From Arcobacter cloacae (lineage in GTDB: Bacteria > Campylobacterota > Campylobacteria > Campylobacterales > Arcobacteraceae): a stretch of 64,000 nt of DNA. Where the stretch lies: NCBI RefSeq assembly GCF_013201935.1, contig NZ_CP053833.1:558001-622000 (forward strand), in the 5' to 3' direction. Below, piece after piece: positions 38,223-53,597 of the stretch. The position numbers were made by a program, and so were the translations under genes. Each line of letters opens with the position of its first letter. Within the stretch, counting starts at the first letter, position 1. The notes under the pieces were generated by a model that saw only the letters and a list, made by a program, of their open reading frames with translations, did not search any database and was not told where the DNA came from.

Positions 38223-39782
38223 ATGGCAAAAGAAAAAAATCAAAAGTCTATGGAAGAAACTCTTTGGGAGAGTGCAAATAAACTAAGAGGTAGTGTTGAA
38301 TCAAGTGAATATAAGCATATCGTTTTAGGGCTAATTTTCCTTAAGTTTGTTAGTGATACATTTGAAGAACGAAGAGAAAAACTACTAGTTGAGGGTAAAG
38401 AAGCATTTATCGATATGGTGGAGTTTTACACTATGGAAAATGTATTTTATCTTCCTGCTGAATCGCGATGGTCATACATAAAACAAAATGCAAAACAAGA
38501 TGACATTGCTCTTAAAATCGATACAGCACTTGCAACTATTGAAAAAAACAATCCTAGCCTAAAAGGTGCATTACCTGATAACTACTTTTCAAGACTTGGT
38601 CTTGATGTGAGTAAACTTTCAAGCTTAATAGATACTATCAATAACATCAACACAATAGAGGATAAAGGACACGATATAGTAGGGCGTGTTTATGAATACT
38701 TCTTGGGTAATTTTGCCATTGCAGAGGGTAAAGGAAAAGGAGAGTTCTATACTCCAAAATCAATAGTAAACCTAATAGCAAATATGATAGAACCCTACAA
38801 AGGAAAAATCTACGACCCTGCTTGTGGAAGTGGTGGTATGTTTGTACAATCTATCAAGTTTATAGAAGCTCATAAAGGAAATAAAAAAGATATTTCTATC
38901 TATGGGCAAGAATATACAGCAACTACATATAAACTAGCAAAGATGAATCTAGCAATTAGAGGAATATCTGCAAATCTTGGAGATGTACCAGCTGATACAT
39001 TTGCAAAAGACCAACACAAAGATTTAAAAGCTGATTTTATCATGGCAAATCCTCCTTTTAATCAAAAAGATTGGAGAGGTGTAAATGAACTATTAGATGA
39101 CCCAAGATGGTCAGGGTATGATGTTCCTCCAACATCAAATGCAAATTATGGATGGATACTAAATATGGTATCAAAACTATCTCAAAATGGTGTAGCTGGA
39201 TTTATTCTTGCAAATGGTGCATTAAGTGGTGGTGGTGAAGAGTATAAAATACGAAAAAAGCTTATTGAAAATGATTTAGTAGAGGCTATTCTAGTTTTAC
39301 CAATGAAAATGTTTTATACAACAGATATTAGCGTAACTCTTTGGATTTTAAATGCAAATAAAAAAGAAAGAACTTTTGAACAAAACAATATTACAAAAAT
39401 TCACAGAGATAGAACAAATGAAATTCTATTTATGGACTTAAGAAAATTGGGTGTAGCTTTTGAAAAGAAGTTTATTCAATTTGATATAGAAACTATTGAA
39501 AAGATTTCATCAACATATCATACTTGGCAAAGTGACAAAGAAGCTTATGAAGATATAGCTGAATACTGTAAAAGTGCAACACTAAGTGAAGTAATAGCAA
39601 AAGATTATTCGCTAGTACCTAGTAAATATATAGAGTTTGTAAATAGAGATGAAAATATTGATTTTGATACAAAAATGACAGCTTTACAAAGTGAATTTGT
39701 AGAACTTTTAAAAGAAGAAGAAAAATCAAAACAAGAACTACTAACAGTATTTAAAGAGTTGGGTTATGAAATCAAACTATAA
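38223..39782 (+). CDS. hsdM: Type I restriction-modification methyltransferase subunit
   Basis: HsdM with HsdS methylates adenine in the target site and protects the host. The 519-residue protein has the N-terminal helical domain, the SAM motif 'DPACGSGGMFV' near 198-208 and the catalytic 'ANPPFNQKDW' near 275-284 (NPPF). It overlaps hsdS by 17 bases. The order hsdM, hsdS, rloC-like, unknown, fic, hsdR follows. The ribosome binding site (AAGAAAAG) is weak. Confidence 0.96.
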   Translation: MAKEKNQKSMEETLWESANKLRGSVESSEYKHIVLGLIFLKFVSDTFEERREKLLVEGKEAFIDMVEFYTMENVFYLPAESRWSYIKQNAKQDDIALKIDTALATIEKNNPSLKGALPDNYFSRLGLDVSKLSSLIDTINNINTIEDKGHDIVGRVYEYFLGNFAIAEGKGKGEFYTPKSIVNLIANMIEPYKGKIYDPACGSGGMFVQSIKFIEAHKGNKKDISIYGQEYTATTYKLAKMNLAIRGISANLGDVPADTFAKDQHKDLKADFIMANPPFNQKDWRGVNELLDDPRWSGYDVPPTSNANYGWILNMVSKLSQNGVAGFILANGALSGGGEEYKIRKKLIENDLVEAILVLPMKMFYTTDISVTLWILNANKKERTFEQNNITKIHRDRTNEILFMDLRKLGVAFEKKFIQFDIETIEKISSTYHTWQSDKEAYEDIAEYCKSATLSEVIAKDYSLVPSKYIEFVNRDENIDFDTKMTALQSEFVELLKEEEKSKQELLTVFKELGYEIKL

Positions 39783-40956
39783 AAAGCTTGGGGATTTTAT
39801 TCAACAAGTTAAAAAGAGAAATAATGACAATAGCTTAACAGTTGATAATCTAAGAGGTATAAATATTAGTAAAGAGTTTATGCCATCTGTTGCAAATGTT
39901 ACTGGAACAGATTTATCAGTTTATAAAGTTGTAGAAAGAAATCAATTTGCATATAATCCTATGCACGTTGGTAGAGATGAAGTATTACCTATAAGTATGC
40001 TTGTAAACGAAGATAAAGTAATTGTATCTCCTGCTTATGTAATTTTTGAAATAGTGGATACAGATAAGTTATTACCAGAATATCTTATGATTTGGTGTAG
40101 AAGAAGTGAGTTTGATAGAAATGCTTGGTTTACAACAGATAGTAGTGTAAGAGGTGGATTTAATTGGGAAGATTTTTGTGATTTAGAACTTCCAGTTCCT
40201 TCACTTGAAAAACAAAAAGAGATAATCAAAGAGTATCACACTATCACAGACCGAATCAGACTAAATGAACAACTAAATCAAAAACTAGAAGATACAGCAC
40301 AAAGTATTTATAAAGAGTGGTTTGTAAATTTTGAGTTTCCTGATGAAAATGGTAAGCCATATAAATCAAATGGTGGTGAAATGGTTTATTGTGATGAGTT
40401 GGAAATGGAAATACCATATAATTTCAGAAATGGCTATTTAGAGGAAATTATAGATATTTTTGATTCACGAAGAATTCCCTTATCAGGTTTTGAGAGAGAA
40501 AGTATGATAAAAATTTATCCATATTATGGAGCTGCTTCATTAATGGATTATGTAGAAGATTATATTTTTGATGGAACATACATATTACTTGGTGAAGATG
40601 GAACAGTTATGACTGAAAAAGGTTATCCCGTCTTGCAATATGTTTATGGAAAGTTTTGGGTAAATAATCATGCACACATTTTGAAAGGAAAAAATGGATT
40701 TGATGAGAATAGTTTATTTGTTCTTTTGAATAATACAAATATTAGCGATATTATAACTGGAGGAGTTCAAGCAAAAATCAGTCAGACTAATTTAAAGACA
40801 GTTAAAATATCAGTACCTCCTGAAAATTTAATTCAAGAGTTAAATAAAAAATTAAAACCAATATTTGATGTAAAAATTCAAACACTTGAAATACAAAAGA
40901 TTTGTTTTAAATTAAAAGAAATTCTACTTTCAAAAATGGCAACTATTGAGGAATAA
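39766..40956 (+). CDS. hsdS: Type I restriction-modification specificity subunit
   Basis: HsdS reads the bipartite DNA target. The 396-residue protein has a first target-recognition domain (about 1-150), a conserved helical spacer with 'QKEIIKEYHTITDRIRLNEQ' and 'LEDTAQSIYKEWFVNFEFP', a second domain (about 200-340) and a final helical repeat near 355-392. Both halves are complete, so the recognition site should be two-part and asymmetric. There is no second partial hsdS nearby, so no sign of shuffling-based phase variation. Confidence 0.93.
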   Translation: MKSNYKKLGDFIQQVKKRNNDNSLTVDNLRGINISKEFMPSVANVTGTDLSVYKVVERNQFAYNPMHVGRDEVLPISMLVNEDKVIVSPAYVIFEIVDTDKLLPEYLMIWCRRSEFDRNAWFTTDSSVRGGFNWEDFCDLELPVPSLEKQKEIIKEYHTITDRIRLNEQLNQKLEDTAQSIYKEWFVNFEFPDENGKPYKSNGGEMVYCDELEMEIPYNFRNGYLEEIIDIFDSRRIPLSGFERESMIKIYPYYGAASLMDYVEDYIFDGTYILLGEDGTVMTEKGYPVLQYVYGKFWVNNHAHILKGKNGFDENSLFVLLNNTNISDIITGGVQAKISQTNLKTVKISVPPENLIQELNKKLKPIFDVKIQTLEIQKICFKLKEILLSKMATIEE

Positions 40957-40958
40957 AA

Positions 40959-43241
40959 ATGATTACATCACTAACTATTAAAAATGTAGCAAGTTATAAT
41001 TCAGCTGGTGAGACAGTTAGTGAGTTAAAAAAAGTTAATTATTTCTTTGGAAATAATGGTTCTGGAAAATCAACATTAGCAAAATATTTGCATAGTTTAA
41101 GTCAAAATGTTCCAGAAAATAGATTTAATAACTGTACACAAGTAGGTTTTGATAGTGATAATAATCAAATTATAGTTTTTAATGAAGAATTTATAAAAAG
41201 AAATTTTATTGCAAGAAATACTCAAATAGGTATATTTTCATTAAATCAAAAAAATGAAGAAATTGATGAAGCTATAAAAGAAAAGCAAAAAGAGCTTGAA
41301 CAATTAGAAAATAAAAATGAATCTTTGAATTTTAGAAAAAGTAAATTTGCCAAATTTCAAGAAGATGAATTATCTACACTTAAAGACAATTGTTTTGATT
41401 TGAGAAAAACTGTATTAAATTCATTTCCAAAAATAAAAGATTTGTTCCCAAACAAACAAAAACAAAATAACTTTGAGCAGATATTAAAAATTTTACAAGT
41501 TCAGCCACTTCAAAATCTAACATTTGATATGCTACTAGAGGATTATAAAAAATATTATGATACAGAGATAGTTTATATTACTCACACTATTTCATTAGAT
41601 AAATTAAATATAATAGTTGACATAGAAAAATCAATAAATGAAATATTACAAAAAGTGATCATAGGTAATACAGAAGTTGATATTTCAGGATTAATTGATT
41701 TCCTACAAAATAAAAAATGGGTAGAAAATGGTATTGACTATTTAGATAAAGAAAAAGATATCCAAGCTTGTCCATTTTGTCAACAAGAAACTATAGATAA
41801 AGAGCTAATAAAAAAATTCAATAGTTATTTTGATGAGTCTTATAAAAAGAGTATTGAAGATATTGAAAAATTTAGAATACAATATGTAAATTTATATAAT
41901 GAATTCAAGTTAAATTTCCAAAATGTTGTTAATGAATATAATGAATTAAATAAAGTTTCAAATTTAATTGAAAAGCTAAAAGATAACTTTGATACTAATA
42001 TAAAAATTTTTGATGAAAAACTTGAAAAAACAAATGAAAAAAAAGATATTATGTCTTTTTTAGGATTCAAGCAGACAATATTAGATATAAATAAAGAAAT
42101 TAATACAAACAATGAAAACTATAATAATTTAGATAGTCATAGAAAAAGCTTTTTAAATAAGATATGGTTATATATTACATTTAAAATGAAAACTACTATT
42201 GAAACTATCTTGAATAAAGAAAAAAAATATCAAGATATATTTAGCCTAATAGATCATAAAAAAGAAGTAATTAAAGATAAAATTATTGTTATAAAAGGTG
42301 AAATAGAAAGTTTAAGAGAACAAACTATTTCAACTAAAGAAGCTGTAGAAAATATTAATACAATATTAAAAAATAGTGGTTTTGGAAGCTTTTCAATAGA
42401 AGAAAAAGAATTAACAAACAATAATATTTCAGAATATTATCTAAAAAGAGATAGTGGAGAGGATGAAGAAGTTTTTAAAACATTGAGTGAGGGGGAAAAA
42501 AACTTTATTGCATTTTTGTATTATTATCAATTATGTTTGGGTGTACATGATATAGATGAATCTGAAAAGAGAAAAATTTTAGTCATTGATGATCCAGTTT
42601 CAAGTTTAGATAGTCAAGTTTTATTTATTGTAAATTCTTTAATTCAACATTTAATTGCTAATAAAGGTAAAACAAAACCAGAGAAAAAAGCATTTAAGAA
42701 TCCACTCTTAGAGCAAGTTTTTATTTTAACACATAATATATATTTTCATAAAGAAGTTTCTCTTTTTAGTCATCAAAGAATTTGTATAGATCATCAGTTT
42801 TTTACTGTTAAAAAAGTTAATGGTGCTTCTAAAATTCAGATTAATGAAAAACCAGTAGTTAATGATTATTTTTTATTATGGGATACATTAAAAAATATAA
42901 ATGATACTATCACTAAAAATCCAAATGATAAAACTCATAATATTTCAATTACAAATTTAATGCGTAGAATATTGGAAAGTTATGTTAATTTTACAGGTCT
43001 AGGTAATACAGTCTGGAATGCTATCAAGGATACAAATCCTGAAGACCCTATTAATATTATTTGTAGTTCTTTAATATCAGAATTACAAGATGGGAGTCAT
43101 AAGGTATCTCCACTTGATGAAATGTATTTTACAAGGGTTATTAATGAAGAGTCACAAAAACTATTTGATGTATTTAAAATAATTTTTGATGAAATTGGTA
43201 AAGAACATTATTTAATAATGATGGGAATAGAGAATGAATAA
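40959..43241 (+). CDS. RloC-like AAA ATPase with putative anticodon nuclease domain
   Basis: The 760-residue protein begins with an ABC/SMC-like ATPase: Walker A 'FFGNNGSGKSTLAKYLHS' near 30-46. Long coiled coils follow, with a CxxC zinc-hook-like motif (ACPFCQQ) near residues 269-275. The second ATPase half has 'LSEGEKNFIAFLYYYQL' and Walker B 'ILVIDDPVSSLDSQ'. The C-terminus has Arg669, Glu673 and His714 in the R-xxx-E...H spacing of the PrrC/RloC ribonuclease triad. RloC-type proteins cut tRNA anticodons when their guard, often a type I restriction enzyme or DNA damage, is disturbed. It lies between hsdS and hsdR, as prrC does. The nuclease role is inferred. Confidence 0.78.
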   Translation: MITSLTIKNVASYNSAGETVSELKKVNYFFGNNGSGKSTLAKYLHSLSQNVPENRFNNCTQVGFDSDNNQIIVFNEEFIKRNFIARNTQIGIFSLNQKNEEIDEAIKEKQKELEQLENKNESLNFRKSKFAKFQEDELSTLKDNCFDLRKTVLNSFPKIKDLFPNKQKQNNFEQILKILQVQPLQNLTFDMLLEDYKKYYDTEIVYITHTISLDKLNIIVDIEKSINEILQKVIIGNTEVDISGLIDFLQNKKWVENGIDYLDKEKDIQACPFCQQETIDKELIKKFNSYFDESYKKSIEDIEKFRIQYVNLYNEFKLNFQNVVNEYNELNKVSNLIEKLKDNFDTNIKIFDEKLEKTNEKKDIMSFLGFKQTILDINKEINTNNENYNNLDSHRKSFLNKIWLYITFKMKTTIETILNKEKKYQDIFSLIDHKKEVIKDKIIVIKGEIESLREQTISTKEAVENINTILKNSGFGSFSIEEKELTNNNISEYYLKRDSGEDEEVFKTLSEGEKNFIAFLYYYQLCLGVHDIDESEKRKILVIDDPVSSLDSQVLFIVNSLIQHLIANKGKTKPEKKAFKNPLLEQVFILTHNIYFHKEVSLFSHQRICIDHQFFTVKKVNGASKIQINEKPVVNDYFLLWDTLKNINDTITKNPNDKTHNISITNLMRRILESYVNFTGLGNTVWNAIKDTNPEDPINIICSSLISELQDGSHKVSPLDEMYFTRVINEESQKLFDVFKIIFDEIGKEHYLIMMGIENE

Positions 43242-44172
43242 TATTAAAGTATTAGATAAACTAGAAATTCACTACTATCTAACTGATGGTAGTCACTCGA
43301 TGAACGCTTTTGTTAGAAATAAAGCAGAGAAAGATTTATTAGATGCTTTAAGAAAAATAGGTGAATTATTAGATAGTGAACTTGAAATTGAAACTGAGGC
43401 TTATCAAGAAGGTGGCTTAAAAGAACTTATTTTAATTGGTTTTTTAGGAACGCTACATTATCTTTCTCCATCTATCAATGATATTATTACTCACTATACA
43501 ACAAAAGATGCAGTTGTTGAAGAATTAGATAAAAAAATTAAAGAAGAAACTTTAAAAAATCTACAGTTAAATAACAAACAAAAAGAATTAGAGTTAGAAA
43601 AAGATATTGATAAAAAACTTGAAAATAAATTAGTTCAAAAATATATTTCAAATTTTTATAAAAAAATAGATGATTATAAAAAAGTAGAAAAAATTGGCTT
43701 CAAGGATTTAACAAACAATTCTAAAGAAATTATAGTTGAAAGACAATATTTTAAGAATTTTATTTTAGAAGATAATGTTACTATTGAAGAAGATGATGAA
43801 GCAATGATTGAGATAATCTCTCCTGTATTAAAAGAAGGAAAATATAATTGGAGAGGGAAATATAAAAGTGAAAAAATAGATTTTAGTATGGGAGATACAA
43901 AATTTAAACAAGAAGTTATTGAAGGAAAACATACTTTCTTAAATGGTTCTTTAATTTTATCAAGTCTTCATATCAAAATAACATTTGATGAATTTGGTGA
44001 TGAAAAACGTAAAAATTATTCTGTACAAAAAGTTTATGGTACACAAGAAATAGAACTTGGAGAATTAAAACTTCGCGACATAGGTAAAAAGAAAAAAGAT
44101 AAAGATTTATTTGAAAAACAATGTCCTAGTTTATTTGATTTATTAGATAAGAATGAGAATAAAAATGATTAG
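43234..44172 (+). CDS. Unknown protein coupled to the RloC-like gene
   Basis: The 312-residue protein overlaps the end of the RloC-like gene by eight bases, so translation is coupled. It starts with 'LEIHYYLTDGSHSMNAFVRN' and 'LDSELEIETEAYQEGGLKEL', a pattern I have seen only as a hypothetical family. A single hydrophobic stretch lies near 75-90, a charged helical linker follows (115-155), and a beta-rich C-terminal domain includes 'EGKYNWRGKYKSEKIDFSMG'. No catalytic motif is visible. Its position inside the hsd/RloC locus suggests a partner or modulator of that system. Confidence 0.6.
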   Translation: MNNIKVLDKLEIHYYLTDGSHSMNAFVRNKAEKDLLDALRKIGELLDSELEIETEAYQEGGLKELILIGFLGTLHYLSPSINDIITHYTTKDAVVEELDKKIKEETLKNLQLNNKQKELELEKDIDKKLENKLVQKYISNFYKKIDDYKKVEKIGFKDLTNNSKEIIVERQYFKNFILEDNVTIEEDDEAMIEIISPVLKEGKYNWRGKYKSEKIDFSMGDTKFKQEVIEGKHTFLNGSLILSSLHIKITFDEFGDEKRKNYSVQKVYGTQEIELGELKLRDIGKKKKDKDLFEKQCPSLFDLLDKNENKND

Positions 44173-44192
44173 AAATTTGAAAAGAAATTAAA

Positions 44193-45164
44193 ATGAATAA
44201 CTACACACCACCATACAAAATAACCTCAAAAATACTAAAACTATCAACACAAATAAGTGAAGAACTCACAAAACTTCAATTTACTGGTGTTGAAAAAGTA
44301 AACCCAATGCTAAGAAAAAAGAATCGTATCAAAACTTTAGCAGGTACTTTGGAAATAGAGGGTAATTTTTTAGGCGAAGAAAAAATCACAGCTATTTTAG
44401 ATGGAAAAAGAGTATTAGGAACAGTAAAAGAATTAGCAGAAGTTCAAGGGGCTATAAAAGCTTATGAGAAACTAGATAGCTATAGATATTTTGAATTAGA
44501 TGATTTACTACTAGCTCATAAAATCTTGATGGATGAGATTCTTACAACTGCTGGAAGTTTTAGAAGTGTAAATGTAAAAGTGGGTGAACATATTGCACCA
44601 CAGCCAAATATGGTAAATGAACTTATGATAAATCTTTTTTCATGGCTAAAAAATAGTGATGAACATATGCTTTTAAAATCTTGCATATTTCACTATGAAT
44701 TTGAGTTTATACATCCATTTTCAGATGGTAATGGCAGAATTGGAAGACTTTGGCAAAGTGTGATTTTAAATAGTTTTAATCCAATTTTTTCACTTCTACC
44801 AACGGAAAGTATAGTAAGAGATTATCAAGAAGAATACTATAAAGCAATAGAAGATTCAACCCAGATTGGTGAAAGTACGCCATTTATAGAGTTCATGCTT
44901 GAGATGATATTCAAATCTATACAAAATATTAAAGATGATAATGTCCCAATAAATGTCCCTAAAGATGACCCAATAAAAAGATTAGATAAAATAATAGAAA
45001 TAATTAGTGAAAATAAAGATATAACCATCCTAGAACTTGCAAATAAATTGAATGTAGCAGATAAAACAATCAAAAGAGATATAGCGAAACTAAAAGAACA
45101 AAATAGAATCATAAGAGTTGGAAGTCTAAAATCTGGTCATTGGGAAGTAAAAGTATATGAGTAA
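44193..45164 (+). CDS. Fic family AMPylase with N-terminal inhibitory helix and C-terminal HTH
   Basis: The 323-residue protein has the Fic core motif 'HPFSDGNGRIGRLWQS' (HxFx(D)GNGRxxR) near 178-193, which transfers AMP or another nucleotide monophosphate to a target hydroxyl. Upstream is 'TLEIEG' near 50-55, matching the (S/T)xxxE(G/N) inhibitory motif of class II Fic proteins. The C-terminal ~70 residues form a winged helix ('ITILELANKLNVADKTIKRD', 'LKEQNRIIRVGS'), so it can probably bind DNA. It lies between the RloC-associated gene and hsdR. It could regulate the locus or be a toxin-type effector. Confidence 0.88.
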   Translation: MNNYTPPYKITSKILKLSTQISEELTKLQFTGVEKVNPMLRKKNRIKTLAGTLEIEGNFLGEEKITAILDGKRVLGTVKELAEVQGAIKAYEKLDSYRYFELDDLLLAHKILMDEILTTAGSFRSVNVKVGEHIAPQPNMVNELMINLFSWLKNSDEHMLLKSCIFHYEFEFIHPFSDGNGRIGRLWQSVILNSFNPIFSLLPTESIVRDYQEEYYKAIEDSTQIGESTPFIEFMLEMIFKSIQNIKDDNVPINVPKDDPIKRLDKIIEIISENKDITILELANKLNVADKTIKRDIAKLKEQNRIIRVGSLKSGHWEVKVYE

Positions 45165-45187
45165 TTTGTTTTATAAAAAATCACTAT

Positions 45188-45292
45188 GTCGGAAATTCCG
45201 ACTAACTCAAATTTTAGATAGTTCCAAAATGGAACAAACTTGTAATAATTTTTTACAAATTCAAAATTATAAAATTCGGGAATTCCGAATTT
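45188..45292. promoter_or_regulatory. Cluster of four perfect inverted repeats upstream of hsdR
   Basis: In 105 bases between fic and hsdR there are four inverted repeats: GTCGGAAATTCCGAC (45188-45202), GTTCCAAAATGGAAC (45221-45235), TTGTAA...TTACAA (45240-45258) and AAATTCGG-GAATT-CCGAATTT (45272-45292). The first and last share the 13-bp core TCGGRAATTCCGA. They probably are operators or RNA hairpins controlling hsdR, and the Fic HTH is an obvious candidate binder. hsdR control separate from hsdM fits the need for methylation before restriction. Confidence 0.75.
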
Positions 45293-45323
45293 CTAAAAAA
45301 CATTGGAGCTAAAGAAATAAATC

Positions 45324-48300
45324 ATGAGTAAATTCACAGAAGAAAAATTAGAATTAGCATTTATAGAGTTACTTGGAAATCAAGGTATCACTTATCAATT
45401 TGGAAAAGAAATTATAAGAAATGAAAGTGAAGTATTACTAGAAGATGATTTAAAAGAGTATCTAAAAGATAGATATAAAAATGAAAATATCACTGATAGT
45501 GAAATTACTCAAATAATACGAAAACTTCACTCTTATCCAGCAAGTGACCTTTACGATTCAAACAAATCTATAATGAAACTAATCTCTGATGGATTTATTC
45601 TAAAAAGAGAAAAAGCAGATGATAAAGATATTTATATAGAGTTTATAAATTATGAAGATGTAAACTCAAACAACTTTAAAATAGTAAATCAACTTGAAAT
45701 TATGGGCTATGAAAAAAGAATACCTGATGGAATACTGTATATAAACGGTATTCCATTGGTTGTGTTTGAGTTCAAAAGTGCCATAAGAGAAGAAGCAACA
45801 ATCCATGATGCTTTTGTGCAACTTACCGTTAGATATAGAAGAGATATTCCAGAACTTTTTAAATATAACGCATTTTGTGTCATAAGTGATGGAGTAAATA
45901 ATAAATCAGGTTCATTTTTTTCTCCTTATGAGTTTTTTTATGCTTGGAGAAAAATCACTGGAGATGAAATAGATGTAGATGGAATAGCATCTATGCACTC
46001 TATGATTCAAGGTATGTTTGATAAAGAGCGACTTGTTGATGTGATTCATAATTTTATCTATATGCCAGATAAATCAAAAAAAGAAGAAAAGATAGTTTGT
46101 CGTTATCCTCAATATTACGCAACTAGAAAACTATATGAAAATATAAAAGTTCATCAAAAGCCACAAGGCGATGGAAAAGGTGGTACATACTTTGGTGCAA
46201 CTGGTTGTGGAAAAAGTTTTACTATGCTTTATTTAACAAGAATGCTTATGAAAAGTATTTATTTCTCAAGTCCAACAATTATTTTAATAACTGATAGAAC
46301 AGATTTAGATGTACAGCTAAGTAGTCAGTTTTCAAATGCAAAAGGTTTTATTGGTGATGATGGAATTGTAAGTGTTGAAAGTAGGGCAGATTTAAGAGCT
46401 AGACTTCAAGGTCGTGAAAGTGGTGGAGTATTTTTAACAACTATTCATAAGTTCACAGAAGATTTAGAAATACTAAGCCATAGAACAAATATCATAGTGA
46501 TTTCAGATGAAGCCCATAGAAGCCAAATCAACTTAGACCAAAAGGTAAAGGTAACTGATAAAGGGGTTAAAAAGACTTACGGTTTTGCAAAATACTTGCA
46601 TGATTCACTTCCAAATGCTACTTATGTTGGATTTACTGGAACTCCTATTGATGCAACACTTGATGTGTTTGGAGATGTTATTGATAGCTATACAATGACT
46701 GAATCAGTTAGAGATGAAATAACAGTAAGAATTGTATATGAAGGAAGAGCTGCTAAAGTTTTACTTGATAACTCAAAACTTCATGAGATAGAAAAATATT
46801 ATGATGAATGTGCAACACTTGGAGCAAATGAACACCAAATAGAAGATAGTAAAAATGCTATGGCAAATATGAGCCAAATTCTAGGAGATCCAGATAGAAT
46901 AAAAGCAATAGCAAAAGATTTTATAGAACACTATGAAAAAAGAGTAGAAGAGGGTGCAACACTAAAAGGAAAAGCTATTTTTGTATCTAGTTCAAGACCT
47001 ATTGCCTATGCACTTTTCAAAGAATTAGTAGCATTAAGACCATCTTGGAATGAATCAAGAGTTTGTGATGAGGGTGTGGAACTTAGTGATAAAGATAAAA
47101 AAGAGATACTTCCACTTGAAAAACTAAAAATGATTATGACTCGAAATAAAGATGATGAAAAAGAGTTGTATGATTTATTAGGAACTAAAGAGTATAGAAA
47201 AACTTTAGATACACAGTTTAAAAATGAAAAATCAAACTTTAAAATAGCTATTGTTGTTGATATGTGGCTTACTGGGTTTGATGTACCATTTTTGGACACA
47301 ATATATATAGATAAACCTATACAAGAACATAATCTAATCCAAACTATTTCAAGAGTAAATAGAAAATATGCAGGAAAAGAAAAAGGATTAGTAGTTGATT
47401 ATATAGGTATAAAAACTGCAATGAATAAAGCTTTGAAACAATTTTCAAGAATTGACTCCCAAAACTTTGAAGATATAGAAGCTTCAATAGTTGTAGTAAA
47501 GGATCAATTAGATTTATTATCAAAACTATTTTATAAATTTGATACTAGTAAATATTTTAATGGAAGTGCAATAGAACAATTAGAGTGTTTAAATCTTGCT
47601 AGTGAATTTGTACAACTTACAAAAGAGCTTGAAAATAGATTTATGTACATAGTAAAAAGACTAAAATCAGCTTATGACATTTGTTGTGGTAGTGAAGTAT
47701 TTACACAAAAGGAAAAAGATTATATTCACTTCTATTTAGCTGTTCGTTCAATCGTAATAAAGCTTACAAAGGGCGAAGCTCCTGATACTGCACAAATGAA
47801 TGCAAAAGTTGCTCAAATGATAGAAGAAGCACTAAAAAGTGAAGGCGTAGAAGAAATCTTCAAACTGGGCAGTGAAGATGAAAGCAAGATAGATATTTTT
47901 GATGAAGATTATATAAATAAGATAAATAAAATAAAACTACCAAATACAAAAATAAAACTACTTCAACAACTACTAGCAAAAGCCCTTGAAGAGTTTAAAA
48001 AAGTAAATAAAGTAAAAGCAGTTGATTTTTCTAAAAAGTTTAATGCTCTTGTTGAAAAATATAATGAAAGAAAAGAAGAAGATGTACTTGTTAGTGAGGT
48101 CTTAAATGACTTTACTGATGAGATAATTGACCTTTATCACGCACTACAAAAAGAAAAAGAATCATTTGGTGATTTAGGAATAGACTTTGAAGAAAAAGCT
48201 TTTTACGATATTTTAAAAACAATAGCTATTAAATATGATTTTTCATATCCTGAAGATAAACTTCTATCACTTGCAAAAGAGGTAAAATTAGTGGTTGATG

Positions 48301-48467
48301 ATAAATCAAAATATACAGATTGGAATATAAGAGAAGATATAAAAGCCGAATTAAAAGTAGATTTGATAATGCTTTTAGCCAAACATGGTTATCCACCAAT
48401 CACAAAAGATGAAGTGTTTAAAGAGATTTTTGAACAAGCAGAGAATTTTAAGAGGTTTAGAAATTAA
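45324..48467 (+). CDS. hsdR: Type I restriction endonuclease subunit R
   Basis: HsdR translocates DNA and cuts it at a distance when unmethylated sites are met. The 1047-residue protein has the PD-(D/E)xK nuclease near 130-150 ('PDGILYINGIPLVVFEFKSA'), then a SF2 motor with Walker A 'FGATGCGKSFTM' near 289-300, 'ISDEAHRSQ' (DEAH) near 393-401 and 'YVGFTGTPIDA'. The C-terminal helical region binds HsdM. It is full length and appears intact. It lies 159 bases after fic, separated by the inverted-repeat cluster. Confidence 0.96.
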   Translation: MSKFTEEKLELAFIELLGNQGITYQFGKEIIRNESEVLLEDDLKEYLKDRYKNENITDSEITQIIRKLHSYPASDLYDSNKSIMKLISDGFILKREKADDKDIYIEFINYEDVNSNNFKIVNQLEIMGYEKRIPDGILYINGIPLVVFEFKSAIREEATIHDAFVQLTVRYRRDIPELFKYNAFCVISDGVNNKSGSFFSPYEFFYAWRKITGDEIDVDGIASMHSMIQGMFDKERLVDVIHNFIYMPDKSKKEEKIVCRYPQYYATRKLYENIKVHQKPQGDGKGGTYFGATGCGKSFTMLYLTRMLMKSIYFSSPTIILITDRTDLDVQLSSQFSNAKGFIGDDGIVSVESRADLRARLQGRESGGVFLTTIHKFTEDLEILSHRTNIIVISDEAHRSQINLDQKVKVTDKGVKKTYGFAKYLHDSLPNATYVGFTGTPIDATLDVFGDVIDSYTMTESVRDEITVRIVYEGRAAKVLLDNSKLHEIEKYYDECATLGANEHQIEDSKNAMANMSQILGDPDRIKAIAKDFIEHYEKRVEEGATLKGKAIFVSSSRPIAYALFKELVALRPSWNESRVCDEGVELSDKDKKEILPLEKLKMIMTRNKDDEKELYDLLGTKEYRKTLDTQFKNEKSNFKIAIVVDMWLTGFDVPFLDTIYIDKPIQEHNLIQTISRVNRKYAGKEKGLVVDYIGIKTAMNKALKQFSRIDSQNFEDIEASIVVVKDQLDLLSKLFYKFDTSKYFNGSAIEQLECLNLASEFVQLTKELENRFMYIVKRLKSAYDICCGSEVFTQKEKDYIHFYLAVRSIVIKLTKGEAPDTAQMNAKVAQMIEEALKSEGVEEIFKLGSEDESKIDIFDEDYINKINKIKLPNTKIKLLQQLLAKALEEFKKVNKVKAVDFSKKFNALVEKYNERKEEDVLVSEVLNDFTDEIIDLYHALQKEKESFGDLGIDFEEKAFYDILKTIAIKYDFSYPEDKLLSLAKEVKLVVDDKSKYTDWNIREDIKAELKVDLIMLLAKHGYPPITKDEVFKEIFEQAENFKRFRN

Positions 48468-48506: not shown

Positions 48507-49868
48507 TTGAGTCAAATAATTTATGATTTTTTAAAAGATAGTTTTCTTTATGATGATAGATATATAGAAAATTACTACTCAATAGCTTCAGAATTGGAAC
48601 TAAAAAATGAATTTACAAAGTATAGAAACTATATTTTAAGAAATATGAGTAAACTTCATGAAGAAATAACACTTTATGCAAATCAAATAAAAATATTTAG
48701 TATTGATAAATTTATTGATTTCTCAAAAATAAGACAAATGTCATTTTATTTAGATCAAGTAATAATATCTGATCCACTATTTAAAATAGCTACTCCAAAC
48801 AATTTAAGTCAGGATGTTTTTAGTGAATATTTAGGAATAAAAAAAGAAAACAATATAGATAGGCAAGAATTAACAAATATAATGCAAAATTTTAAAAAGG
48901 CAGAAGTATTAGTAGAAGCAACTTATCTAAAATTTTTTCCAACAAGCTATTTTTTTGAACTAAAAAGTGAAATTCCTTTATTATACTCAGAAACACAATT
49001 TTATGATGCTCTTCCAAAAAATATTATGGATTTATATCATAAAAATACTGAACTACGTACTTTTAAGAAAAATGGACCTTACCTAACTATAAATAAAAAC
49101 TTTGAAAGAGATAGAACGCTTGAAGTACTTTTTAAAAATGATGATACTATATTTACAAATATGTATAATTTATTTGAACAGAAAATAATCAGTTATGATG
49201 AAAAAACAAATGTTGCTGAGTTTATAATGACATTACCAAATACGGTACCTTCAAAAGAATCTTTTGATAACTGGGTTTTTCAATCAATTAATCAAAGTGC
49301 TATATCTCATTTCAAAAAGATTTCATTAGATATTAATTTATCTATGAATTTAAAAGCTCAATATTCAACTACTTCTATATTTGTAGATATGATATTAAAA
49401 AGTCAATTTAATATTCAATCAGACATAAAAAGTCATGTGTCAAACTTAATGTTAAATTTTGATTTAAATTTTTTTGAGAATATTAATATAAAAGAATTAA
49501 TGGCAATTAGAAAAAATGATGGTGAAGAATTTGAAGTTTTTAGGCGTGAATTAGAAAAACAATTAAGAGATATAAAAAATGAAAAAGATATTTCTATAAT
49601 TCAATCAAAAATACAAGATGTGAAACATGAATTAGATGAAGTTCAGATTACATCAATAAATTCAAAAATTAAAAAAATAAGAAAAAAATCTTCAATTGAT
49701 TTTATAATAGGAACTGCTGGTTTAGGGGCAAGTTTTGTTACAGGGGGATTATCAACTTTTGCAACTTTAATAGCTTTGTTTAATGGGTATAAAACTTACA
49801 ATGATTATCAAGATGAAGTAAAAGAAAATCCTTCATACTTTTTATGGAAAGTTAAAAATAATAAATAA
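48507..49868 (+). CDS. Unknown protein downstream of hsdR
   Basis: The 453-residue protein starts at TTG with GTTAGGAGTTAATA as ribosome binding site. It is mostly helical and polar. A coiled-coil stretch lies near 345-385, and a hydrophobic Gly-rich helix near 401-425 ('IIGTAGLGASFVTGGLSTFA') could insert in a membrane. No catalytic motif is visible. Being in the defence cluster and ending in a membrane-like helix, it could be an effector of abortive infection. That is only a guess from position and topology. Confidence 0.6.
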   Translation: MSQIIYDFLKDSFLYDDRYIENYYSIASELELKNEFTKYRNYILRNMSKLHEEITLYANQIKIFSIDKFIDFSKIRQMSFYLDQVIISDPLFKIATPNNLSQDVFSEYLGIKKENNIDRQELTNIMQNFKKAEVLVEATYLKFFPTSYFFELKSEIPLLYSETQFYDALPKNIMDLYHKNTELRTFKKNGPYLTINKNFERDRTLEVLFKNDDTIFTNMYNLFEQKIISYDEKTNVAEFIMTLPNTVPSKESFDNWVFQSINQSAISHFKKISLDINLSMNLKAQYSTTSIFVDMILKSQFNIQSDIKSHVSNLMLNFDLNFFENINIKELMAIRKNDGEEFEVFRRELEKQLRDIKNEKDISIIQSKIQDVKHELDEVQITSINSKIKKIRKKSSIDFIIGTAGLGASFVTGGLSTFATLIALFNGYKTYNDYQDEVKENPSYFLWKVKNNK

Positions 49869-50024: not shown

Positions 50025-50056
50025 AGAAGCTTGAGACTGTTCAGAATTTTGTGTCA
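50025..50056 (+). repeat. Left terminal inverted repeat with 8-bp target duplication
   Basis: AGAAGCTT (50025-50032) is followed by the inward repeat GAGACTGTTCAG-AATTTTGTGTCA (50033-50056). It matches the inverted right end at 53566-53589 at 19 of 24 positions by my alignment. The same 8-mer, AGAAGCTT, follows the right end at 53590-53597 in direct orientation. Confidence 0.85.
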
Positions 50057-50202
50057 AAGTTAAATAGTCCCAAAATTTTAGCATAGTTAATCTTACTTAG
50101 TCTAATTTGTTCCAAATATCAATGGTAAAATTGAACTTTTTTAGTACCTCTAATAAAATTATGATGAACATGGTTGTGCCTTTATAAAGTTTTTTTGATT
50201 TT

Positions 50203-50236
50203 AATAATGTTGAAAAAAAAGATTTTCAACATTATT
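50203..50236. terminator. Bidirectional hairpin terminator after the SIR2-STAND gene
   Basis: AATAATGTTGAAAA (50203-50216) pairs perfectly with TTTTCAACATTATT (50223-50236). T-runs exist on the outside in both directions, so it can end transcripts of the - strand SIR2 gene and + strand read-through. Confidence 0.8.
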
Positions 50237-50278
50237 GTAGAGGTTATTTTAAGTTGTTTTTTACGATATACAATTAAA

Positions 50279-52888
50279 TCAAATTAAATATTGCTCTTCG
50301 GCATCTTTTGTAATATCTATAGAATCAAGTATCTTTTTATCTTCAAGTGATGTTTTAATCATGTATAGTTTTTTATTTCTCTCTAAAAATTTATAAAACT
50401 TTTTCCATATAATTAAAAGTAATGCATGATTATTAAATCTTTTTAAAGAATCCATAATTATAGAATATAGATATTTTATTTTTTTACTATCTAAATCAAA
50501 ATTAAATCTTTTGTGTAACTGCATAAATCCATCAATATATGAATGAACAGGATATGCATCATTAATAGGTAATTGAGCTATCATTATTTTTTCACCTTTT
50601 TCAAATTCTTCTTTTGCAAGATTATAATCAGAAATCCTTATAGCATAAAACATATGCCATTGACCAATAGTATGTTGTATTTTATAAGAAGATGGATTTA
50701 ATGTAGATGCCTGTTCAAGATGTATCTTTGCCGAATCAAAATCTTTTAACTTCATTTCCATTCTCGCATATTGAAGCCAAAAATCAGAATTAGCATTAAA
50801 ATAACTACTTAATGAATAATAAAAATTATCACTTAATTTTTTATCTTTTATTTCAAAATATTTATAATACAATTTCGATACTAATAATGTATGAGTTACT
50901 TCCGTATAGAGATTTTTTCCTTTGTTAAAATTTACATCATAATTTAAAGATATATAAACTAATATTTCTTTCGTAATATTAAATATCTCCTTTTGTTCAA
51001 AATGTTTTTTTACATAATTTAATATACTCTTTGTTACAAATGAACCTCTAGGTCTAATATTGATATTTAAATTCTTATAATCATGAATATTATTATGATT
51101 TAACAAATCTGAACATTCAGTAATTGTCTTATGTAAATTAGTAATTTTATTTTTAAAAATATTTAGATATAAATTTAATGGAAGATGGTATGAACCAAAA
51201 CTATCAAAAATAGAAAGAACTATTAAAAATAGTGCATTTTCTTTATCTTGCATTTTTTCTATTACTTTAAGATTAATACTATTATAAAAACCTCTACCAG
51301 AAGTAGATTTAATAAGAGATGAGAATAAATCAAATTTACTATTTTTAGAATTCTTTAAGAAATAATTAACTCTTTCATCTAAAGTTTTAAAATCAATTAA
51401 TTTTCCCAAATATCCTTTTTCCTCCAATTTTAAAACAATTTTTCCAGCATCATTTTTAGATATTAGTTGATCAAAATTATATATTACTTGGGGAATATTA
51501 AGTAAATTTCTCATTTCCCTATAATATTCAGGTATTCTTGAGCTTATTACTACTGATACACTTTTTTCTTCAAGTAAATAATCATACAATCTAGATGTAA
51601 AATTAAATGCCCAACTACCATTATCAAAAAAAATGATAACTTTTTTGTCATTTTTATTTATAAATTCTGCTAATTTTTCTGCATTATTATCATATAATTG
51701 AACATTCTCATCATGAACTAAAACATAATAATCATTATTTATTGAATAGTCATAAATTAGTCGTTTTAAAGACGTAGTTTTTCCATTACCAGATTTTCCT
51801 AAAAGTAAATATAAATTAAAATTACTGTTAGTATTTATTTCTTTTTTTAAATCCTCAGTATTTGTTAAAATAACATCTGCTTGAGAGATTATATCAATCC
51901 ATTTTGCTTCAAAGCCTGTATAAAAATTTATTGGTTTATGAGTTGCTATTTGTTCATTTGTATAACGTTTTTTTAAATTATTTTCTAATTTAAATCCAAT
52001 ATTTTCTAATGTTTTTTCTATTGGTACTTTCTTTACTATTTTAAATTTATTTTCTTTTTTTTCATTAAGAGAGATAAATTCTAAAACTTTTTTTATAAAA
52101 CTTTCTGCAGTTTCTTCTATACATACAATATTTCTTTTACTTAATTCTAGTTCATCTTCAGGATAAATAGTTCTACTTATATAATAAATTTTTTCTATTG
52201 GTAATTCAGACCCCATTCCTTTACCAAATCTTTCAACATATATATCCAAATCTATTTCATCCAATTTTGTGCCTATAATACATATCGTATCCATATAAAG
52301 TGCTTCACCTAATTTTAAAAAATTATATGAGTCTTTTGGATCAATTAATTTTGTCAAATATTGTTTATCTGAAAATACAAAGCCTTCTGATTTATTTCTT
52401 ACATCTCCATGTAATTTATAATAAGGAGTTATATTATCTGCAACAATTTTTTGCGGTTGTTTTTTAGTATTGTAAATTTGAAGTTCGATATCACAATCTT
52501 TATAAGTATTTTCTAAAACATCATCTATATTTAAAGTAAATATTTCTTTCCAATTTACAGTTGTATAATCTTTATGAAAAGTTGTCGGAGTACAATTACT
52601 AAACCATCTTGTAAGTTTGTTATTAAATTCATTTTCAGTAATTTTATCTATCGCTAATTGACAAATTTGCTTTAAATTTTTTCTTTTTTTAATTCTTTCA
52701 GAATTTTCTTCATCAAGTTCTAATATTTCATTTAAAATTTTATCTATTAAAGCATTAGTAGATAACATATCTTCATTTTTTATAGTTGCACCTATTGAAA
52801 AGCCAGCTCCTGTCATTAAACTAACATCACCATTTTGTATTTTTTTTAATAAAGATTTGTGTTTTTCAAAACATAACTTTTTTTCCAT
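50279..52888 (-). CDS. SIR2-STAND-TPR anti-phage protein (Avs5-like)
   Basis: The protein of 869 residues (ATG at 52888; a GTG four codons upstream is also in frame) has three parts. Residues ~20-260 are a SIR2-type NAD-binding domain: 'MTGAGFSIGA' near 25-34, 'IFTLNIDDVLENTY' near 117-130 and 'YYKLHGDV' near 158-165. A STAND P-loop NTPase follows with Walker A 'LLGKSGNGKTTSLKRL' near 360-375 and Walker B 'KVIIFFDNG' near 412-420. The C-terminal ~300 residues are helical repeats, with a TPR-like block 'AKIHLEQASTLNPSS' near 717. SIR2-STAND proteins (AVAST type 5) sense phage proteins and deplete NAD+ to stop infection. That role here is inferred. Confidence 0.83.
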   Translation of the reverse strand: MEKKLCFEKHKSLLKKIQNGDVSLMTGAGFSIGATIKNEDMLSTNALIDKILNEILELDEENSERIKKRKNLKQICQLAIDKITENEFNNKLTRWFSNCTPTTFHKDYTTVNWKEIFTLNIDDVLENTYKDCDIELQIYNTKKQPQKIVADNITPYYKLHGDVRNKSEGFVFSDKQYLTKLIDPKDSYNFLKLGEALYMDTICIIGTKLDEIDLDIYVERFGKGMGSELPIEKIYYISRTIYPEDELELSKRNIVCIEETAESFIKKVLEFISLNEKKENKFKIVKKVPIEKTLENIGFKLENNLKKRYTNEQIATHKPINFYTGFEAKWIDIISQADVILTNTEDLKKEINTNSNFNLYLLLGKSGNGKTTSLKRLIYDYSINNDYYVLVHDENVQLYDNNAEKLAEFINKNDKKVIIFFDNGSWAFNFTSRLYDYLLEEKSVSVVISSRIPEYYREMRNLLNIPQVIYNFDQLISKNDAGKIVLKLEEKGYLGKLIDFKTLDERVNYFLKNSKNSKFDLFSSLIKSTSGRGFYNSINLKVIEKMQDKENALFLIVLSIFDSFGSYHLPLNLYLNIFKNKITNLHKTITECSDLLNHNNIHDYKNLNINIRPRGSFVTKSILNYVKKHFEQKEIFNITKEILVYISLNYDVNFNKGKNLYTEVTHTLLVSKLYYKYFEIKDKKLSDNFYYSLSSYFNANSDFWLQYARMEMKLKDFDSAKIHLEQASTLNPSSYKIQHTIGQWHMFYAIRISDYNLAKEEFEKGEKIMIAQLPINDAYPVHSYIDGFMQLHKRFNFDLDSKKIKYLYSIIMDSLKRFNNHALLLIIWKKFYKFLERNKKLYMIKTSLEDKKILDSIDITKDAEEQYLI

Positions 52889-53116
52889 TTCCAAAGGCAC
52901 CTTTCAAATTAGTTAAAAAAGTGTAGCTAAAAAATAATTATTTTTAACTTTATTAAATACTAATATTATTAATTAATCTAATGTGACTATTGTCCATTGA
53001 TAAATAGTCGATAATTCAATAACATACAATCCATGAATAAAAAAGAACTACAATTTTAATATTTCAAAATAACAATTATTTAAATAGTGTTGTTTAGGAA
53101 TAAGAGGTTATTCTAT
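52889..53116. other. Upstream region of the SIR2-STAND gene
   Basis: Non-coding AT-rich DNA that should hold the leftward promoter of the SIR2-STAND gene. I could not fix its boxes, and no open frame is supported. Confidence 0.4.
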
Positions 53117-53170
53117 ATAAAACATCACAGAAAAAAAATATTTCAATATTTTTTTTCTGTGATGTTTTAT
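53117..53170. repeat. Perfect 26-bp inverted repeat with 2-base loop
   Basis: The left arm 53117-53142 (starting ATAAAACATCACAG and ending in A8-TATT) is the exact reverse complement of 53145-53170. The loop is only TC. The arms are long and flanked by A8/T8 runs, so it can act as a bidirectional terminator, an RNA duplex or a remnant of mobile-element ends. It lies between the SIR2-STAND promoter side and the internal IS end. Confidence 0.85.
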
Positions 53171-53198
53171 AAAATCCTGATCTGGCTCCACTATATAG

Positions 53199-53221
53199 GA
53201 CATAAAATTCTGAATAATCTT
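53199..53221. repeat. Internal IS256-end-like repeat
   Basis: GACATAAAATTCTGAATAAT (starting 53199) matches the inverted left end at 50033-50056 at about 19 of 24 positions. It has the orientation of a right end, so the SIR2 gene is bracketed by ends at 50033 and 53221 as well as by 50033 and 53589. No target duplication is seen here. Confidence 0.6.
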
Positions 53222-53449
53222 TTTCTAAATCTCTAAATTTTGGAACAAAATTATAAAATCTAACTTATTGGCTTTATAACCTTTATTTAGAGATATAATT
53301 TGTTCCAAAAATTGTTCAAGAAGTAGAATTGAGAGATTCTCTTAACCCCTCAGGACTTTTTGAACAACAAAAGTCAATTTTTAAGTCATAAGTTTAAAGA
53401 TTGATCCAGTCTACTCTCAAACAATATTACCAACTGAGAATAAAGGGAG

Positions 53450-53533
53450 CTAAAACGCTCCATCCTTACCATCTATTTTTGCACCAGCTTTAATTTGTTC
53501 CAGTGCTTCTGTTAAATCAAATATTTGATTCAT
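53450..53533 (-). pseudogene. Remnant of IS256-family transposase (N-terminus only)
   Basis: Reading the - strand from ATG at 53533 gives MNQIFDLTEALEQIKAGAKI then DGKDGAF and a stop. This resembles the beginning of IS256-type transposases ('ALEQLKAGKPLxGKDGxLxPL'). A ribosome binding site (AAAGGATTG) stands before it, and the terminal inverted repeat 32 bases further out, as in an intact IS. The rest of the transposase, with its DDE residues, is absent. Confidence 0.72.
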
Positions 53534-53565
53534 TTTTCAATCCTTTAGAATAAATTCTATCAGAC

Positions 53566-53597
53566 TGACACAAAATTTCTAACACTCCCAGAAGCTT
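53566..53597 (-). repeat. Right terminal inverted repeat with 8-bp target duplication
   Basis: TGACACAAAATTTCTAACAC (from 53566, ending CTCCC-type at 53589) is the inverted partner of the left end at 50033-50056. It is followed by AGAAGCTT (53590-53597), the direct copy of the 8-mer before the left end. The same stretch forms the left half of a 22-bp palindrome (53590-53611), the apparent insertion target. Confidence 0.83.

Follow-up and report, generated by a model that had tools for sequence, protein, structure and literature searches.

An IS256-type element with a deleted transposase, very probably one of a family of cargo transposons in Arcobacteraceae, carries a SIR2-STAND gene in Arcobacter cloacae

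The locus

We analyse a stretch of 64,000 nucleotides of Arcobacter cloacae DNA (G000:C1:558001-622000 in our genome set, positions 558,001 to 622,000 of contig NZ_CP053833.1), which we call the window and within which coordinates are counted unless a contig or locus is named. Our subject is the element that spans 50033-53589 (3,557 bp), where an intact gene for a SIR2-STAND protein lies between inverted ends together with the remains of an IS256 transposase. The element sits in a defence island between two converging genes, breaking no gene. Its features are the following.

50025-50032, no strand: left copy of the target duplication, 8 bp, AGAAGCTT
50033-50056, plus strand: left terminal inverted repeat, GAGACTGTTCAGAATTTTGTGTCA, identical in genomes G029, G078, G079 and G081
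50033-50118, plus strand: conserved left-end module of about 86 nucleotides, 68-76 of the 86 identical to other cargo elements
50279-52900, minus strand: SIR2-STAND passenger gene, intact, 873 amino acids, GTG start, with Pfam SIR2_2 and nSTAND_NTPase5 above cut-off
53116-53171, no strand: perfect 27-bp inverted repeat with a 2-nucleotide loop (hairpin), inside the element and upstream of the SIR2-STAND gene
53197-53222, minus strand: sequence resembling an end, AGATTATTCAGAATTTTATGTCC, internal to the element and at the tail of what remains of the transposase; the G009 and G012 copies have it at the same place
53223-53439, minus strand: what is left of the 3' end of the IS256 transposase, codons about 384-397, with the adjoining 3' flank
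53440-53533, minus strand: transposase start, 27 codons (53533-53453) closed by a TAG stop; the deletion covers codons about 28-383 and with them the DDE catalytic residues
53566-53589, minus strand: right terminal inverted repeat, GGGAGTGTTAGAAATTTTGTGTCA, 24 of 24 identical to intact elements
53590-53597, no strand: right copy of the target duplication, AGAAGCTT, forming an arm of the palindrome AGAAGCTTATTAATAAGCTTCT, which resembles a terminator

The ends and the target duplication

The inverted ends start at 50033 on the plus strand and at 53589 on the minus strand and match each other at 19 of 24 positions (80% over 25 nucleotides). The coordinates that the initial annotation gave for these ends, and for the exact 8-bp duplication outside them, proved to be right to the nucleotide. 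Compared with elements that have an intact IS256 transposase, the left end is identical at 22-24 of 24 positions and the right end at all 24, as is expected of terminal repeats of the IS256 family; the left end agrees at 24 of 24 with the elements in G029, G078 and G079 and differs at 1-2 positions from most others. The duplication of AGAAGCTT has the 8-bp length of this family, and 12 relatives also have exact duplications.

It is noted that the end-plus-repeat pattern alone is weak. When we counted inverted pairs that match at 19 or more of 24 positions within 15 kb and have an exact 8-bp repeat, the real window gave one pair, which is the element itself, and 20 dinucleotide-preserving shuffles of the window gave 5, i.e., 0.25 per window, so that the pattern is not significant on its own. 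Because it arises in shuffled sequence, the case for the element rests on the comparison with its relatives.

Related cargo transposons

The DNA query 53180-53597 matched 24 of the 31 genus genomes, and relatives were gathered by searching the genus and 104 genomes of the family for the end patterns, by a transposase search and by region extraction. Thirteen elements, including that of the window, have both ends and an exact 8-bp duplication, and seven of them (in G012, G024, G059, G061 and G084, and two in G083) encode an intact transposase of 400 amino acids. The 13 elements, with their duplications and lengths, are as follows.

Window: AGAAGCTT, 3.6 kb
G009: ACTAGCTT, 2.2 kb
G012: AAAAAAAG, 8.5 kb (8,548 bp)
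G024: GATAAAAA (plus strand of L038), 2.9 kb
G029: TTAAAAAA, 10.0 kb
G056: TAATTGTG, 3.0 kb
G059: GATAAAAT, 2.9 kb
G061: CTTCTTTT, 2.9 kb
G078: TATCTTTA, 7.7 kb
G083, first: ATTAATAC, 7.1 kb
G083, second: TATCTTTC, 14.7 kb
G083, third: TAAAAAGA, 2.9 kb
G084: TTTGAAAT, 3.1 kb

Five further pairs of ends have no duplication (G009 with a CRISPR locus, G030, G083 with an efflux pump, G060 and G085). The transposase of the relatives scores 416 bits with NCBIfam transpos_IS256 (cut-off 150) and matches Pfam Transposase_mut, with the D, D and E motifs in place. The complete elements follow one plan, in which the right end is followed by the 400-amino-acid transposase, the passenger genes and the left end, with the 8-bp duplication outside; in G012, for example, the left end lies 7 kb from the transposase, beyond the passenger genes. 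The window element agrees with these intact transposons at both sides, its right end with 150 nucleotides being 88-93% identical to theirs and its left 86 nucleotides 79-88% identical to their left ends, both facing inwards. Judged from the sequences, this comparison makes it certain that the ends and the duplication of the window element are real. Intact IS256 copies with the same ends, which the initial annotation proposed to look for, are thus present in both the genus and the family.

Moreover, one of the relatives is nearly identical in different genomes. Over its full length, the 2.86-kb permease (metal-efflux) element of G024 is 99.8% identical to that of G059, 99.4% to that of G061 and 98.0% to that of G083, and it is present in three genera at four different duplications. 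At the level of sequence, this spread is direct evidence that the unit moves. The family of cargo transposons is apparently undescribed.

Loss of the transposase

The 27 codons of an IS256-like transposase noticed in the initial annotation are present at 53533-53453 and end in a stop, and directly beside them, at 53439-53398, lie about 14 codons from the 3' end of the transposase, which had gone unreported. As these pieces make no functional DDE transposase, which the relatives do have, the window element is a derivative and not an insertion sequence (IS). In G012, the counterpart of the matching stretch holds an extra 1,056 bp or so, which completes the transposase of 400 amino acids, and therefore the window copy is internally deleted.

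The same deletion derivative occurs in G019, with 96% identity over 358 nucleotides including the junction. There it adjoins a gene other than that of the window, in another species, and the sequence outside its right end is unmatched. The derivative codes for none of the catalytic residues, so that its occurrence at two places suggests, from sequence, that it moved in trans or recombined once the deletion had taken place.

We considered a single transposase deletion common to all transposase-less copies and rejected it, as the window and G019 share one junction and the CRISPR copy of G009 and further copies have different ones. The CRISPR copy of G009 has lost the stretch from about codon 20 to about codons 374-378, the permease copy of G009 is broken from codon 156 to 373, the G056 transposase is broken after codon 219, that of G029 has multiple breaks, and in G078 only codons 6-36 remain. 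In the genome of the window we found no intact matching transposase, but only a frameshifted chromosomal copy and decayed pieces on a second contig. As its genome holds only broken related transposases, the window element should be immobile at present.

Note also that an end-like sequence, GAGACTGTTCA.AATTTTGTGTCC, is kept directly 3' of the transposase and facing the cargo, both at 53197-53222 and in copies of G009, G012, G015, G016, G019, G020 and G021. The sequence at 53197-53222 and the left end would bracket the cargo alone.

Target-site preference

All 13 duplication-bearing elements lie between converging 3' ends of genes, typically less than 100 and at most 287 nucleotides away (the orientation of the neighbours was examined for 11 elements together, with two added later). 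In a set of these loci, 2.2% of positions fall in gaps between converging genes and 15.2% in intergenic DNA of any kind. Selection against gene disruption can explain why the insertions are intergenic but not why the genes converge. The reconstructed target sites fold at a mean of -10.9 kcal/mol, compared with -7.1 kcal/mol at random positions (p = 0.007), and also more stably than other converging gaps (-7.2 kcal/mol, p = 0.008). At several sites, as at AGAAGCTTATTAATAAGCTTCT in the window, the duplication forms an arm of a hairpin that resembles a terminator. The simple ISs of the same subfamily, with transposases 72-74% identical, obey this rule too: a gene 3' end lies on the side of the transposase start in 15 of 15 cases and on the opposite side in 11 of the 12 testable ones.

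The SIR2-STAND passenger

The initial annotation described the passenger as an intact SIR2-STAND gene, and the open reading frame of 873 amino acids with both domains above cut-off bears this out. Its G+C content is 22.2%, compared with 26.9% in the window. The protein contains GAGFS at residue 31, TLNID at 122, HG at 164 and the Walker A motif GKSGNGKT at 368. We found no homologue in 31 genus or 397 phylum genomes, no relative in GTDB by peptide patterns and none in phages; one partial match, at 24%, is on a plasmid of Vibrio pectenicida. A sequence comparison with solved structures gave no match, homology of the C-terminal part to a sensor was not found, and the AlphaFold prediction from the single sequence (pLDDT 36, pTM 0.26) is too low to use.

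In Avs5, the SIR2 part hydrolyses NAD+ when a phage is sensed, and residues of the kind present in GAGFS, TLNID, HG and GKSGNGKT have been shown to matter (PMC12931631). Like Avs5 (AVAST type 5), the present protein has an N-terminal SIR2_2 domain (PF13289), the GAGxS, TxNxD and HG motifs, and a central STAND NTPase with Walker A (PMC12931631). It departs from Avs5 in that nSTAND_NTPase5 is the STAND model that it matches best, nSTAND3 falling below cut-off, and in that it has no match in PADLOC at 0.001. From the domains and from knowledge of the family, we infer a putative anti-phage function as a phage-triggered NADase.

Passenger genes of the relatives and the neighbourhood

The relatives carry unrelated passengers, among them metal pumps, drug pumps and defence genes, which are listed here.

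G009, G024, G059, G061 and G083: an ArsR-type regulator and an ArsP_1/SO_0444-type permease
G084: a LysE exporter and a PhzF-like gene
G056: a LysE exporter and an AraC gene
G078 (L180:1468-9142, transposase-less, exact duplication): an EptA-type phosphoethanolamine transferase, DgkA and a two-component pair
G083: an RND pump
G083: genes for cytochrome bd and peroxiredoxin, identified by eye in the sequence
G029: riboflavin-, queuosine- and pyrimidine-type paralogues (by eye) and a Fic gene
G012: signalling genes and a serine resolvase
G009 (L096:2189-10817): a type II CRISPR-Cas9 locus, with Cas9, and with Cas1, Cas2 and the array named by eye
G030 (L039:5027-7368): a DpnII/MboI-like nuclease gene
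G060: AbiEii

The set of EptA, DgkA and two-component genes alters lipid A in other bacteria. A serine resolvase of about 187 amino acids, with nearly the same sequence, recurs in several large elements (L097:6236-6799, L142:5284-5805, L179:3537-4100, L181:14518-15081 and L098:7512-7940), which resembles the unit transposons that resolve cointegrates.

The CRISPR-Cas9 element of G009 and the nuclease element of G030, in two species, have a common insertion site and common end modules, with unrelated contents and no target duplication. Their flanks are 97% identical over a stretch of 757 bp that takes in the right module and 92% identical over one of 587 bp that takes in the left. From these sequences we infer that the content of an element can probably change via homologous recombination while the ends stay.

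In the defence island, one side of the window element has a type I restriction-modification system (methyltransferase, specificity subunit and HsdR), PDC-S06, PDC-S42 and SoFic, and the other side has PDC-M06 and a tyrosine integrase. The type I subunit genes span 38223-48467 together with those for PDC-S06 (PrrC-like), PDC-S42 and SoFic, which lie between the genes for the specificity subunit and HsdR. Beside the element, 48507-49868 encodes a protein of 453 amino acids that has relatives at G000:C1:1678041 and G025:C1:1017136, with 77% DNA identity over 1.38 kb.

Discussion

Based on the observed ends, duplication, deletion, intact relatives, passenger plan and target preference, we regard it as very probable that 50033-53589 is a non-autonomous, transposase-deleted member of the IS256-family (prokaryotic Mutator-like) cargo transposons of Arcobacteraceae, with the SIR2-STAND gene as its passenger. 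According to this reading, the transposon would have inserted at the terminator-like palindrome between the converging genes of the defence island, and an internal deletion would have removed the catalytic core of the transposase while both ends were kept. With both ends in place, a related transposase could still move the element in trans. The protein would most likely act like Avs5, with the STAND part sensing a phage product, the protein then undergoing ATP-driven oligomerisation, and the SIR2 part then hydrolysing NAD+ and thereby stopping the infection.

The initial annotation saw here a defence-type gene in a transposase-less IS256-type element, movable only with a transposase in trans, for which the deletion and the intact relatives give good support. 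Its idea that an IS captured the gene calls for two corrections. The element is no one-off capture but belongs to a family whose members carry many different cargoes, and the passenger probably predates the loss of the transposase, because the intact relatives have their passengers in place between transposase and left end.

Several points weigh against the reading given above. The two ends pair at 19 of 24 positions only. The search of the genus for joined flanks gave no full empty site: in G016:C80 the right flank (89%) is found with an uninterrupted AGAAGCTT palindrome, but the left flank there is unrelated. The derivative in G019 shows the right end only and is on a short contig. The SIR2-STAND protein is without a close relative and fits no PADLOC defence model at 0.001, its role being read from its domains. 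Finally, the loss of the transposase could postdate the last transposition, in which case this copy never moved in trans.

This last point leads to an alternative that we consider quite possible, if somewhat short of even, namely that a complete transposon with both the transposase and the SIR2-STAND gene inserted here and that the transposase was later deleted in place, leaving a decaying copy. It is a sub-case of the preferred explanation, from which it differs only on whether the movement in trans happened. Passenger and transposase do occur together in the intact relatives, and the separately broken transposases of G009, G029, G056 and G078 are as neutral decay would give; however, the 96% identical derivative with the same junction and a clean right end, beside another gene in another species (G019), needs movement or recombination after the deletion. 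Recombination has a larger role if an older transposase-deleted element stood at this site and its passenger was swapped by homologous recombination via the end modules, so that the SIR2-STAND gene was not brought by transposition. We hold this to be unlikely. G009 and G030 do share outer flanks (92-97%) and end modules (about 126-129 nucleotides) around different cargo, and neither has a target duplication. Against the idea, the window copy has a perfect duplication and the typical spacing, as direct insertion predicts, and no second occupant of the window site is known. As for chance, by which end-like sequences would flank a gene and the 8-bp repeat would be accidental in AT-rich DNA, the rate of 0.25 per shuffled window would allow it, but the match of both inward-facing ends to intact transposons (right 88-93%, left 79-88%) refutes it, and we give it practically no weight.

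It is instructive to compare these elements with known classes. With the IS256 family (prokaryotic Mutator-like, p-MULT 1) they share the transposase family, the DDE motifs, imperfect ends of about 24 bp and 8-bp duplications. They differ from the surveyed p-MULT 1 elements (PMC3942029) in having passengers of about 1.4-13 kb and in their insertion between the 3' ends of converging genes. Transporter ISs (tISs) are IS copies with passenger genes (PMC3129680), and the intact relatives in G012, G024, G059, G061, G083 (two copies) and G084 are of this kind, having one IS transposase and unrelated passengers within one pair of ends; they differ from known tISs in their wide range of cargo and in that some copies reach 14.7 kb. 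A literature search, which was not exhaustive, found no tIS of the IS256 family. A mobile insertion cassette (MIC) is an IS derivative without its own transposase that can be activated by a cognate transposase (PMC3129680). The window element is like a MIC in having IS ends, a non-transposase passenger, no functional transposase and a target duplication, and unlike a MIC it keeps remnants of both transposase ends, is of the IS256 type and carries a defence-type passenger. Because the remnants of both transposase ends remain, it arose by internal deletion from a tIS. The cognate transposases are present in relatives, with none intact in the genome of the window, and the G019 derivative at another site is only suggestive of mobilisation in trans.

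What is new here is the IS256-type family of transporter transposons that targets converging genes, together with a transposase-deleted, MIC-like member that has a defence passenger. More generally, we propose tentatively, at a little under an even chance, that the IS256-type cargo transposons of Arcobacteraceae have converging gene ends (bidirectional terminators) as their targets, carry large passengers from one genus to another and have lost the transposase again and again with the ends retained. The forms without a transposase would then be interchangeable carriers of defence genes (SIR2-STAND here, CRISPR-Cas9 in G009, the DpnII-like nuclease in G030 and AbiEii in G060), which travel in trans or receive new contents through recombination between end modules.

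In the survey of Guerillot et al. (2014), all 109 p-MULT 1 elements were simple ISs and insertion looked random (PMC3942029). The converging-gene targeting and the cargo revise this picture, in which IS256 elements are simple ISs that insert at random. For the movement of defence genes outside a phage, a plasmid or an integrase island, the window element offers a small and concrete vehicle: its ends are defined, a helper enzyme can be identified in relatives and its landing preference spares genes. The ends, the helper transposase and the target sites are ready material for testing the movement in trans.

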